In this document: piece after piece, positions 2,756 to 6,361 of the stretch
Layout: each line of letters begins with the position of its first letter
How positions within the stretch are numbered: position 1 is the stretch's first letter
Assembly: GCF_002633015.1 (NCBI RefSeq)
Contig: NZ_NSIU01000008.1
Span: forward strand, 1 to 64,000
Length of the DNA: 64,000 bases
Source of the DNA: Sulfuricurvum sp. PD_MW2
GTDB lineage: Bacteria > Campylobacterota > Campylobacteria > Campylobacterales > Sulfurimonadaceae
Direction of reading: 5' to 3'
Position numbers and translations under genes: made by a program
Notes under the pieces: generated by a model
Seen by the model: the letters and a program-made list of their open reading frames with translations, nothing else
Database searches by the model: none
Told to the model about the DNA's origin: nothing

Positions 2756-3580
2756 TTAGCCTATTTGGAAGCATCGCATAGAGAGGGTTCCATGTTGAAA
2801 TCCCTCATACACGGTCGTTAGTTTTTCATCATCGTTTTGCGATCCCAAAATCGGCAATATCGGGAGATAATGCTCCAGTGTCGGATGAGCATGGGCGAAA
2901 TAGGGGAGATCAAAGCTGATGATCTTCTGATGGTCGTTTAGAATCGCATCGGCAAACGTATCATCAAACTCTTTTGCCCATACTGCAACAGCGGCATCTC
3001 TATTTCTGTCGATGTCTCCGAGATTGTGGGTGACATTTCCGCTGCCTATAACCATGATTCCATCATCTCTTAGTTTTGAAAGTATTTTTCCTAACTCGTA
3101 ATGCCATGATGCTGGTTTAGTGAGATCAATCGAGAGCTGAAAGACAGGGATGTCATGATCGGGAAACAGATGTACCAGTACCGACCATGCTCCGTGATCG
3201 AGACCATGACGCCGATCGATTAACGCATGCGTCAAATGGGCCAAAAGTACACTCGCATTCATCTCACCTGCTGCATCGTAATGAATATCATAGAGCGAAT
3301 CAGGAAAACCATAAAAATCATGAATTGTTTCGGGTTTATCAACGATCGAAACCTTAGAGCCGTTCGTCGCCCAATGCGCTGAGAGGATCAGAATCGATTG
3401 GGGTTTAGGCAATCTTTTTCCGAGCTCTTTGAGACTGCGGGTATAGGGATTGTCTTCGATGATGTTCATCGGAGAGCCGTGGCTGATAAAGAGGGCGCTT
3501 TGACGCATGATCGGTTTCCTTGATGGGGATGCATGGGCAGCCAAGGCTGCCATGAGCGTTAAAAAATAACGGCGGTTCAT
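2756..3580 (-). CDS. DODA-type extradiol ring-opening dioxygenase (YgiD family) with Tat-like N-terminus
   Basis: A 274-residue member of the class III extradiol (LigB/DODA) dioxygenase family, which opens catechol-type rings using a non-haem metal. Metal-ligand candidates are His34 in FISHGSP and His69 in SAHWA, with a later GSGNVTHNLG motif. The first 16 residues contain RRYFL followed by a hydrophobic Ala-rich stretch, resembling a twin-arginine signal. A second ATG at 3508 has AAGGA eight bases upstream and would give a 250-residue cytosolic form. It is last in the MarR-pirin-YceI-dioxygenase operon. The natural substrate is unknown. Confidence 0.85.
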   Translation of the reverse strand: MNRRYFLTLMAALAAHASPSRKPIMRQSALFISHGSPMNIIEDNPYTRSLKELGKRLPKPQSILILSAHWATNGSKVSIVDKPETIHDFYGFPDSLYDIHYDAAGEMNASVLLAHLTHALIDRRHGLDHGAWSVLVHLFPDHDIPVFQLSIDLTKPASWHYELGKILSKLRDDGIMVIGSGNVTHNLGDIDRNRDAAVAVWAKEFDDTFADAILNDHQKIISFDLPYFAHAHPTLEHYLPILPILGSQNDDEKLTTVYEGFQHGTLSMRCFQIG

Positions 3581-3589
3581 GATCGGACG

Positions 3590-4162
3590 TTACTGAGCCA
3601 AAATACCCTCGAGTTGAACGTCGAGTTTGATTACATCACCTACTGCAACACCGCCCGCTTCGAGAGCTGTATTCCATGTAATGCCGTAATCTTTACGATT
3701 AAGTTTTCCGCTAAGCCCTAGACCGACACGGGTATTTCCCCACGGATCTTTGATGACACCGTTATTTTCAAGATCGAGAATGATATTTTTTGTCACACCG
3801 TGCATGGTGAGTTTCCCGTACGCTTTGTTTCCTTTGACTTTATCGAGAGTAAACGTAATGGTTGGATATTTTTGAACATCAAACAAATCAGGAGATTTGA
3901 GATGATCATCACGTTTGGTATTGGTGGTATTGATCGAATTGACCTCCACTTTTCCGTTTAACGTTTTAAGCGTTTTGCTCTTTTCATCGTATTCGAACGT
4001 TCCGTTAAAGGTGTCGAATTTTCCCGAAACCTCCGATATCATCATATGTTTGACTTTGAACCCGACGTTGGAGTGGCTCGTATCGACCGAATAATTTCCG
4101 GCAAAAAGTGATGCAGTGCTGAGCAATCCGAAAGCGGCTAGGGTAGAGATGGTTTTATTCAT
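3590..4162 (-). CDS. YceI family periplasmic lipid-binding-like protein
   Basis: A 190-residue secreted protein of the YceI family, whose lipocalin-like barrel binds polyisoprenoid or amphiphilic ligands in known members. Residues 1-21 are a signal peptide (hydrophobic LAAFGLLSTASLFAG). The mature start YSVDTSHSNVGFKVKHMMIS is the family signature. It sits between the pirin and dioxygenase genes in the MarR operon, in line with a role in quinone or isoprenoid stress, though that role is inferred. Confidence 0.93.
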   Translation of the reverse strand: MNKTISTLAAFGLLSTASLFAGNYSVDTSHSNVGFKVKHMMISEVSGKFDTFNGTFEYDEKSKTLKTLNGKVEVNSINTTNTKRDDHLKSPDLFDVQKYPTITFTLDKVKGNKAYGKLTMHGVTKNIILDLENNGVIKDPWGNTRVGLGLSGKLNRKDYGITWNTALEAGGVAVGDVIKLDVQLEGILAQ

Positions 4163-4192: not shown

Positions 4193-4900
4193 TTAGTGCA
4201 TCGGCACGTCAAATAATAGAACCTTAGAGTCGCTGTGTGCTAAAAGGGTATATTCCTCCTCGTCTGTGATTTGCAACTCATCTCTTGCTTCAAGAGTTTG
4301 AGTATCTATACTGATTTTGCCTTCGATGACAAAGATCAATCGACCGTGACCCGATGCGACGTTTGGAATCGCAACGGTGGTTCCCTCTGTGATTTCAGTC
4401 GAATAGATAGCCGCATCTTGTTTGATTACAATCGAATCATCCATTCCGTCACCGCTGATGAGGGTGATCCATCGGTTTTGTTGATCATGATGGATAAAAC
4501 TGCGCTGTTCATATCTAGGCGATCCTCCGTTTTGAGAGGGATGGATCCAAATTTGGAAAAGCGCTGCATCCGAATCTGCGGTTGCGTGTTCGGAGTGAAA
4601 GACACCGCTTCCGGCACTCATATACTGGATTTCACCTGCTTTGATGATCCCGTGATTTCCCTCAGAATCTCGATGTTCCAATGCACCTTTGGTAACGATA
4701 GAGATTATTTCCATATTGCGATGAGGATGCATTCCAAACCCTTTTCCCGCTTCGACAATATCATCGTTGATCACCCGTAAGGCTCCAAATCCCATTCGAA
4801 AGGGGTTGTGATATTCGGCAAAAGAAAAGCTAAATCGGCTATGCAACCATCCGTGTTCCGCGATCCCGCGCTCTGATGAGCGATGAAGTGTCAGTGCCAT
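4193..4900 (-). CDS. Pirin family protein (bicupin, quercetinase-like)
   Basis: A 235-residue pirin. The N-terminal cupin keeps the metal-binding set His58, His60 (GMHPHRNMEI), His102 and Glu104 (FHSEH), matching the iron site of human pirin and the quercetin dioxygenase YhhW. The C-terminal cupin (about 150-235) lacks these ligands, as usual. It is the first gene after marR, with a palindromic operator just upstream of its start. Pirins often accompany redox or flavonoid/quinone-responsive regulators. Confidence 0.93.
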   Translation of the reverse strand: MALTLHRSSERGIAEHGWLHSRFSFSFAEYHNPFRMGFGALRVINDDIVEAGKGFGMHPHRNMEIISIVTKGALEHRDSEGNHGIIKAGEIQYMSAGSGVFHSEHATADSDAALFQIWIHPSQNGGSPRYEQRSFIHHDQQNRWITLISGDGMDDSIVIKQDAAIYSTEITEGTTVAIPNVASGHGRLIFVIEGKISIDTQTLEARDELQITDEEEYTLLAHSDSKVLLFDVPMH

Positions 4901-4915
4901 AGTATCTCCTTTTTG

Positions 4916-4933
4916 TAGTACTAATTAGTACTA
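4916..4933. promoter_or_regulatory. Perfect 18-bp palindrome, candidate MarR operator upstream of pirin
   Basis: TAGTACTAATTAGTACTA is a perfect palindrome, 16 bp upstream of the pirin ATG and between marR and pirin. Its core TACTAATTAGTA is repeated in the palindrome upstream of marR at 5429-5450. The shared core beside a MarR-family gene is strong circumstantial evidence for an autoregulated operator pair. Confidence 0.75.
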
Positions 4934-4947
4934 TTTTGATAAATTTT

Positions 4948-5397
4948 TTATTGCGCTTTTTCGAGTTTTCGGAGCAGATGAGAAAGGGTTTTGACCTCCT
5001 CTTCGCTCAGGGCTTTATCGTACCATCCGATCAGATTTTCAACATGGTTCGGAAAAATCGATTGGATCATCATTGAACCTTTCTCCGTGATCTCCAACAA
5101 TTTAATCCGACGATCCTCATCTGAGGGTCTCATAGAAATCAGCCCTTTGGATTCGAGATTTTTAATCACAACGGTGATATTCCCAGGGGTACTGAGGGTG
5201 AGCGTCGTGATCTGACCCACTGTAAGCCGCCCAAGATGGTAGAGTGATTCCAAAATACCAAATTGTGGGAGTGTAAGATCGCGCTCTGCTAACCAGGTTG
5301 TTTCTTTTGCTCGAATTTTGGTCAGTGATCGTGAAAGCTCAATATGAGCGCGTAAAACGATATCTTGATGGCTGCCGTAGCTTTTCGCACGTTTCAT
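4948..5397 (-). CDS. MarR family transcriptional regulator
   Basis: A 149-residue winged-helix regulator. The start at 5397 is preferred because GGAGG lies six bases upstream; an earlier in-frame ATG at 5415 would include that site. Residues about 45-115 form the winged helix (LTLPQFGILESLYHLGRLTV, then the wing DEDRRIKLLEITEKG), the standard MarR signature. It heads the leftward pirin-YceI-dioxygenase operon and is flanked on both sides by matching palindromes, so it likely represses itself and the operon and responds to a small aromatic or oxidant signal. Confidence 0.93.
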   Translation of the reverse strand: MKRAKSYGSHQDIVLRAHIELSRSLTKIRAKETTWLAERDLTLPQFGILESLYHLGRLTVGQITTLTLSTPGNITVVIKNLESKGLISMRPSDEDRRIKLLEITEKGSMMIQSIFPNHVENLIGWYDKALSEEEVKTLSHLLRKLEKAQ

Positions 5398-5428
5398 AGA
5401 AAACCTCCAGATCATTTGATTGAGAAAT

Positions 5429-5450
5429 ATTACTACTAATTAGTAATAAT
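5429..5450. promoter_or_regulatory. 22-bp palindrome upstream of marR
   Basis: A 22-bp palindrome with one mismatched pair, centred on ACTAATTAGT, lies 31 bp upstream of the marR start. It shares TACTAATTAGTA with the perfect palindrome at 4916-4933. A MarR dimer binding here would block the marR promoter. Confidence 0.75.
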
Positions 5451-5479
5451 GTCAATAGGAGTTGATGTAGGTATACTAT

Positions 5480-5554: not shown

Positions 5555-6361
5555 ATGATCGGGATAGAATGGATTGCAGTGTACGCTGCTTTAGGGATTT
5601 TTGTCGGGTTTATGGCTGGGCTCTTGGGAATAGGTGGAGGAATTGTAATGGTTCCGGCATTAACAGCTATTTTTTTAGCGCAAGGGATTGCGACCGATGA
5701 TGTCGTCCATTTTGCATTAGGGACATCCATGTCGGCGATTATCGTCACATCATTTGCAAGTATGCGTGCACATAATGCCAAAGAAGGTGTAATCTGGGAT
5801 ATTGTAAAAATGATAGCACCGGGGATCATCTTAGGAACCTTTATGATGACGTTTGTGGCTGCCTATCTGAAATCGATCCATTTGGCCATTTTTTTCTCAT
5901 TATTTACGGCGTATGTCTCTATCCAAATGATTATTGATAAAAAACCGAAACCAACTCGACAAATTGCAGGAAAAAAAGGGTTGTTTTTCGGAGGCACAAT
6001 TATCGGATCGATTTCAGCACTCGTTTCGATTGGAGGAGGATCTCTCAGCGTCCCGTATTTGGTATGGCAAAATATCGATCTCAAAAAAGCGATAGGTACG
6101 TCAGCGGCTATCGGATTACCCTTATCAATAACGGGTACGATAGGCTATATTATCGCCGGTTGGGATCATACCTCATTTGAGCAGTTTCAGCTTGGTTTTG
6201 TCTATGTACCGGCGGTTTTGGCAATTTCGCTAACGAGCTTTTTCATGGCACCTTACGGTGCAAAATGTGCGCATATTCTTCCAGTTCCTATATTGAAAAG
6301 GATCTTTGCATTTTTATTGATGCTTTTGAGCGTGAAGATGCTATTTTCTGTTATTTCGTAA
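5555..6361 (+). CDS. TauE/SafE family sulfite/organic anion exporter
   Basis: A 268-residue multi-pass inner-membrane protein of the TauE/SafE (DUF81) family. The two half-repeats are marked by GLLGIGGGIVMVPAL near residue 25 and SIGGGSLSVPYL near 158, the glycine-rich family motifs. Roughly eight hydrophobic segments are visible. The ATG follows AAAAGGGAG. It lies convergent with the sulfate ABC operon, which suggests movement of a sulfur anion such as sulfite, but the family also carries other anions. Confidence 0.9.
   Translation: MIGIEWIAVYAALGIFVGFMAGLLGIGGGIVMVPALTAIFLAQGIATDDVVHFALGTSMSAIIVTSFASMRAHNAKEGVIWDIVKMIAPGIILGTFMMTFVAAYLKSIHLAIFFSLFTAYVSIQMIIDKKPKPTRQIAGKKGLFFGGTIIGSISALVSIGGGSLSVPYLVWQNIDLKKAIGTSAAIGLPLSITGTIGYIIAGWDHTSFEQFQLGFVYVPAVLAISLTSFFMAPYGAKCAHILPVPILKRIFAFLLMLLSVKMLFSVIS

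Follow-up and report, generated by a model that had tools for sequence, protein, structure and literature searches.

Paired palindromes around a marR gene of Sulfuricurvum and related Campylobacterota: putative operators of a probable switch for quinone-like chemical defence

It is well known that MarR proteins can regulate their own genes, and operators that lie in the spacer of a promoter are also known. In the case of YodB and CatR, sensing is by means of a conserved cysteine. These two proteins and QsrR are described as quinone-responsive repressors of reductases and dioxygenases, and for QsrR too a conserved cysteine is given as the sensor (PMC6798810). Other MarR proteins sense quinones in a different way. 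MhqR, of Staphylococcus aureus (operon mhqRED) and Bacillus subtilis, is a MarR-type protein with a ring-cleavage dioxygenase in its operon, and it senses quinones without a thiol switch (PMC12893000, PMC6798810). Its quinone pocket is reported to consist of F11, F39, E43 and H111 (PMC12893000), its operator, of the TATCTCGAA type, is a 9-9 bp inverted repeat that extends from -6 to +12 relative to the start, and in MhqR-type regulons ring-cleavage dioxygenases occur together with quinone reductases and nitroreductases (PMC6798810). The third system of interest is GbsR of B. subtilis, a MarR-type repressor of osmoprotectant genes, which has its operator downstream of the start and acts as a roadblock, and for which no promoter-spacer operator is described in the passages cited (PMC7396694).

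The locus that we discuss here has a MarR-type repressor gene and, as in the MhqR systems, a ring-cleavage dioxygenase gene in the same operon, and F39, E43 and H111 of MhqR correspond to F46, E50 and H118 of its MarR protein. It differs from MhqR in its operators, which are of the TACTAATTAGTA type and stand in a promoter spacer and, as a second copy, before the effector genes, and in the effectors themselves, a LigB-type dioxygenase, a pirin and a YceI protein, where the MhqR system has MhqE and MhqD. Unlike GbsR, it would have both modes of repression serving one repressor, and unlike QsrR the MarR protein has no cysteine. What is new is the combination with its operator, and the conserved placement of that operator at two positions. 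In the literature searched (subscription papers and preprints apart) we found no description of the core sequence or of a MarR, YceI and pirin combination, and wider searches, judged by titles and the opening lines of abstracts, brought up no account of this operator or operon. Our best explanation, which we think reasonably probable, is autorepression by the MarR protein at the upstream site (U) together with a roadblock at the downstream site (D), both being released by a quinone- or phenol-type ligand.

The marR locus and the loci compared with it

The window, by which we mean the whole stretch of 64,000 nucleotides from Sulfuricurvum sp. PD_MW2 that was analysed, has the following features at this locus.

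2756-3580, minus strand: LigB-type extradiol dioxygenase, 4,5-DOPA-dioxygenase equivalog, 274 aa (Pfam PF02900, 8e-22)
3590-4162, minus strand: YceI lipocalin-like protein, 190 aa (Pfam PF04264, 1.8e-45)
4193-4900, minus strand: pirin with a quercetinase-type C-terminal cupin, 235 aa (Pfam PF02678, 4e-31; PF17954, 1.6e-19)
4906-4911, minus strand: pirin Shine-Dalgarno sequence AAGGAG, separated from D by 4 bp
4916-4933, minus strand: candidate downstream operator D, a perfect 18-bp palindrome with its core at 4919-4930, lying after the marR stop and before the pirin Shine-Dalgarno sequence
4948-5397, minus strand: MarR-family repressor gene, 149 aa (open reading frame list; Pfam PF01047, 5.1e-14; orthologues in relatives)
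5427-5432, minus strand: -10 element TAATAT of the marR promoter, 4/6 match, with a 17-bp spacer filled by the core
5429-5450, minus strand: candidate upstream operator U, a 22-bp palindrome with one mismatched pair and its core at 5434-5445
5450-5455, minus strand: -35 element TTGACA of the marR promoter, 6/6 match

An earlier note on this DNA had named the four genes and the two palindromes. The gene calls are borne out by the open reading frame list, Pfam and NCBIfam, with all four genes on the minus strand, and the palindromes are as it described them, that at 4916-4933 being TAGTACTAATTAGTACTA on either strand, perfect over 18 bp, and that at 5429-5450 being ATTACTACTAATTAGTAATAAT on the plus strand, with one mismatched pair in 22 bp.

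The marR gene starts with the ATG at 5395-5397, preceded by a Shine-Dalgarno sequence TGGAGG at 5404-5409, and its product scores 52.3 bits for PF01047 against a cut-off of 24.6. The genome has six PF01047 matches, three of which span the full domain, and it has a single pirin. The dioxygenase is above the cut-off of NCBIfam NF007914 (4,5-DOPA extradiol dioxygenase, YgiD type), at 265.8 bits against 233, and the N terminus of the translated YceI protein is hydrophobic and signal-like. The window dioxygenase also has a twin-arginine-like N-terminal extension (MNRRYFLTLMAALA), common to the Sulfuricurvum loci L069, L070, L071, L073 and L074. Its export is uncertain, as translation might instead begin internally at 3508, where AAGGAA stands upstream. 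The pirins of L070, L073, L074 and L077 (260-261 aa) have an RR pair and a hydrophobic leader, and these are possibly exported; the window pirin is without such a leader. The divergent TauE/SafE gene (5555-6361) was considered as a member of the regulon and rejected, as among 30 family loci it adjoins marR only in that of the window.

For comparison we used a family sample of 151 genomes, in which those with a MarR match at E <= 1e-15 (35 genomes) are taken as MarR-positive, and a set of 81 loci, which comprises the window and the best 80 of 260 relatives from a MarR-alignment scan of a named genome collection. The 80 loci belong mostly to Campylobacterota and are from Sulfuricurvum, Sulfurimonas, Sulfurovum, Sulfurospirillum and Arcobacter-type genera, together with a few MAGs labelled Denitrovibrio, Spirochaetales, Firmicutes, Ilyobacter and Gemmatimonadota. 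In this set we call a site U if it stands no more than 140 bp upstream of marR and D if it stands no more than 160 bp after marR, allowing up to 2 mismatches in either case. On this basis U is present in 74 of the 81 loci (the window and the best 80 of 260), D in 59 and both in 58; L141 ends beside marR and its D position is outside the sequence.

The MarR protein, its likely ligand and the genes probably under its control

The AlphaFold model of the window MarR (pLDDT 92.6) aligns with MarR structures over 127-148 residues, with Z of 16-18. Among solved proteins the nearest in sequence is S. aureus MhqR (9QDR/9SMZ), which scores 52.8 bits against 41.1 for the next by single sequence and 104.6 bits against 80.6 by profile. 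The fold comparison does not single out MhqR (HpaR Z 18.0, MhqR 17.6, tied with others), so the link to MhqR comes from sequence.

With regard to the pocket, the numbering of the MhqR chain is offset by 3, consistently over all four pocket residues. The F/E/H trio equivalent to F39, E43 and H111 is present in 80 of the 81 loci (the window and the best 80 of 260), the remaining protein being truncated. One of the two scan patterns contained the E50 stretch, so that the invariance of E50 is partly due to selection, and H118 was in neither pattern; in the 30 family loci that were found without patterns the trio is present in all, as read by eye from the sequences. The fourth pocket residue, F11, is not matched, the equivalent position 18 being H in the window and W in 41, V in 16, H in 10 and I in 9 of the same 81 loci. 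The genome encodes two further MarR paralogues of full length, and both lack the pocket E and H. Published mutants of MhqR (F11A, F39A, E43A and H111A) still bound quinone in vitro (PMC12893000), and residue identity thus predicts the ligand only loosely.

Thiol sensing of the YodB/QsrR type was considered and rejected, as the window protein is cysteine-free, like 58 of the 81 (window included), and no cysteine position is conserved, none holding more than 4 among the 81 loci. A pocket rather than a thiol switch fits this absence of cysteine, as reported for MhqR.

The gene content of the operons also bears on function. At least one of pirin, YceI and dioxygenase is in the operon in 68 of the 81 loci (the window and the best 80 of 260), and all three are in 28. 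The Arcobacter-type operons have sixteen further ORFs in one cluster, the representative of which is an NADPH-dependent FMN reductase, in two spirochaete loci there is a clustered ORF represented by a nitroreductase, and CDGSH proteins are found repeatedly in the operons. A YceI-type lipocalin has been linked to antibiotic capture (PMC5350466), and a yceI gene of Ralstonia is induced by methyl gallate (PMC8472277). The operon gene set, the content of MhqR-type regulons and the YceI literature together favour a role in quinone, catechol or phenolic defence. The earlier note had suggested a response to quinone or aromatic stress, and this now has indirect support from MhqR being the closest solved protein, from the largely conserved pocket and from the FMN reductases and nitroreductase found in other operons. 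We consider a quinone or phenolic to be the likely ligand of the MarR protein on the basis of these residues and genes. Such a ligand, held in the MhqR-like pocket (F46, E50 and H118), would free both sites and so induce the detoxification genes.

There is a further observation on the extent of the regulon. In locus L107, about 1.7 kb upstream of marR, there is a CDGSH-like gene with its own U promoter operator and with D 102 bp later, the product being labelled by eye from the translation as CDGSH-like with a glutamate-synthase-like part. The second operator pair in L107 means that the regulon can include a second unit.

The alternative that survives best is that the sites do belong to this MarR but that its signal is an oxidant, a reactive sulfur species or another aromatic acid and not a quinone. 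MarR proteins respond to a wide range of ligands, sulfane sulfur being one that they can sense (PMC11211675), and several of the fold relatives bind, according to the titles of their structures, salicylate, indole acids, catechol or urate. However the 58 of 81 proteins without cysteine argue against thiol-based sensing of oxidants or sulfane sulfur, and the gene set resembles a quinone/catechol set, and we therefore see a non-quinone signal as unlikely, though with a real share of the probability.

Two sites with one core and different settings

The earlier note had treated the two palindromes as matching operators. They do share the core, but the sites are not equivalent, as U is in a sigma-70-type promoter and D has no recognisable promoter.

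In the case of U, the -35 element is exactly TTGACA (6/6) in 65 of the 74 sites, the -10 element matches TATAAT at 5 or 6 positions in 62 of the 74 with a spacing of 16-18, and the mean best promoter score is 10.91 of 12 (74 loci). It is a strong promoter, and the core takes up its spacer. The median distance from U to the marR start codon is 35.5 nt. A MarR dimer at U would occupy the spacer between -35 and -10 and occlude RNA polymerase, and marR and all genes co-transcribed with it would be autorepressed through U. In 11 Arcobacter-type loci (L084, L101, L115-L118, L122, L124, L126, L135 and L136) there is a second core 40-44 bp, or about four helical turns, upstream of U.

D is placed quite differently. 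In the same register as at U, it has no consensus -35 or -10. A canonical promoter at D was also looked for by score in the 90 bases before the ribosome site and was rejected, as the mean best score was 8.40 of 12 (57 loci) against 8.00 for a control made up of the later junctions of the same operons (117 junctions), with none clearly above the control. D precedes pirin, yceI or the dioxygenase gene, whichever comes first, with a median of 17 nt from its edge to the start codon of that first effector gene. It is present in 54 of the 57 loci that have a gap of at least 37 nt between marR and the effector, and in 0 of the 11 with a shorter gap. In L114 (62 bp apart) and L107 (102 bp apart) the U promoter and D share one leader, which ties D to the effector ribosome site and not to a separate promoter. 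In L091 D comes directly after a weakened U. D is not essential, as 22 of the 81 loci (the window and the best 80 of 260) are without it at that place.

From this position we infer that D is a roadblock operator inside the transcribed region. A MarR dimer bound there would block those polymerases that had passed U, so that the repressor message would leak out while pirin, YceI and dioxygenase would be held off twice, and GbsR provides a precedent for a roadblock by a MarR-type repressor (PMC7396694). Between the marR stop and D, some 10-18 bp ahead of D, most loci have either a tract of T7-T9 or a run of A and then T3-T4, and a blocked polymerase could halt there.

There is an alternative in which the effectors would have an internal promoter of their own, with D as its operator. 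This promoter would be of a Campylobacter type lacking a -35 box, and would consist of the T tract and of an AATAnT element immediately upstream of the core. Campylobacter promoters can indeed be without a -35 box, a comparison of 49 non-redundant D sites shows conservation of TTT at -13 to -11 and of ATA at -4 to -2 ahead of the core, and a score slightly above that of the control junctions could indicate a weak or unusual promoter. However that score is near those of ordinary operon junctions, a start placed as in U would fall beyond the Shine-Dalgarno sequence, and in L114 and L107 D has the U promoter 62 or 102 bp upstream and needs none of its own. We regard an internal promoter at D as improbable, and prefer the roadblock.

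That U and D are joined by a DNA loop through cooperating MarR dimers is much less probable again. There are two strong sites at near-constant spacing (493-532 bp in 57 of 58 pairs), but this constancy is set by the length of marR, the spacing overall ranges from 62 to 631 bp, and helical phasing of U and D was looked for and rejected, there being no preferred period (vector length 0.24-0.33 for every period from 10.0 to 11.0).

Conservation of the core and its association with MarR

The earlier note had proposed a search of the genome for the core as a check on chance occurrence. In the 2,255,500 bases of the genome TACTAATTAGTA at up to 1 mismatch is found only at U and D, in both cases exact, so it does not occur at random frequency; base composition alone predicts about 0.4 exact matches and about 12.8 at up to 1 mismatch, and the reversed pattern, as a control in the same genome, has 6 matches. 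Within the window there are 2 matches at up to 2 mismatches, both exact, a count that is not significant by itself, dinucleotide shuffles giving an average of 1.99.

The exact core is present in 37 of the 151 family genomes, in 31 of the 35 that are MarR-positive as against 6 of the 116 that are MarR-negative (Fisher p about 6e-22, which is only indicative as the genomes are related and no correction for kinship was made). In 29 of the 31 genomes with both, the site is within about 60 bp of marR, and in the remaining 2 it is about 0.6-0.7 kb upstream with yceI between.

The larger set gives the same picture. The 626,670 bases of these loci contain 144 sites when up to 1 mismatch is allowed, 138 of them in the U or D position. 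Six remain, in L091, L109, L114 (2) and L107 (2), and these stand before yceI or a CDGSH-type gene. Loci without U are L076, L091, L109, L114, L145, L146 and L148, and in L091, L109 and L114 yceI precedes marR and the sites stand before yceI. In the Firmicutes pair L144 and L147 both positions hold the variant form TCACTAATTAGTGA, and the gene that follows is for an FMN reductase. In the Gemmatimonadota loci L145 and L148 the F/E/H trio is kept and the palindrome is absent.

Four of the 6 orphan cores in MarR-negative family genomes were examined (L034, L035, L053 and L061), and none has a MarR, pirin, YceI or dioxygenase gene within the fetched stretch. L053, from a genome of the same genus (G092), is the only orphan read that has the promoter form, TTGACA-spacer-core, and this is perhaps a relic or a distant target. 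Carriage of this MarR on plasmids was also considered, and there were 42 records, all below 60% identity, with none close among the 10 matches listed.

That the palindromes are chance AT-rich repeats or sites of an unrelated regulator is scarcely credible: the window count at 2 mismatches does equal that of the shuffles, but the core is unique genome-wide and strongly co-occurs with this MarR, and its deep conservation in relatives leaves no room for chance. As judged by phylogenetic footprinting, the palindromes are almost certainly binding sites for the MarR repressor encoded between them, and the earlier proposal that one regulator acts on both marR and the pirin, YceI and dioxygenase genes is strongly supported by the core travelling with MarR and standing in both places in 58 of 81 loci (the window and the best 80 of 260).

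We also put forward, more tentatively and at somewhat less than even chances, a wider reading that takes in the whole phylum. One repressor would operate a two-gate circuit, with gate 1 in a consensus promoter spacer and gate 2 at the border between regulator and effectors, where it follows the first effector and is kept when gene order is shuffled, and the quinone/catechol defence so controlled would be partly extracytoplasmic. For the last part we draw on the signal-like N terminus of YceI and the twin-arginine-like leaders of dioxygenase or pirin in several loci of the Sulfuricurvum group.

The arrangement found across sulfur-oxidising and related Campylobacterota is probably a switch that turns on defence against quinone-like chemicals. 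For a MarR family found across environmental Campylobacterota the analysis predicts an operator, a regulon and a class of ligand, and it also offers a clear prediction as to why a repressor operon holds its operator in duplicate. Should D prove to be a roadblock, this would be a simple design in which the sensor is expressed while the effectors are silent.
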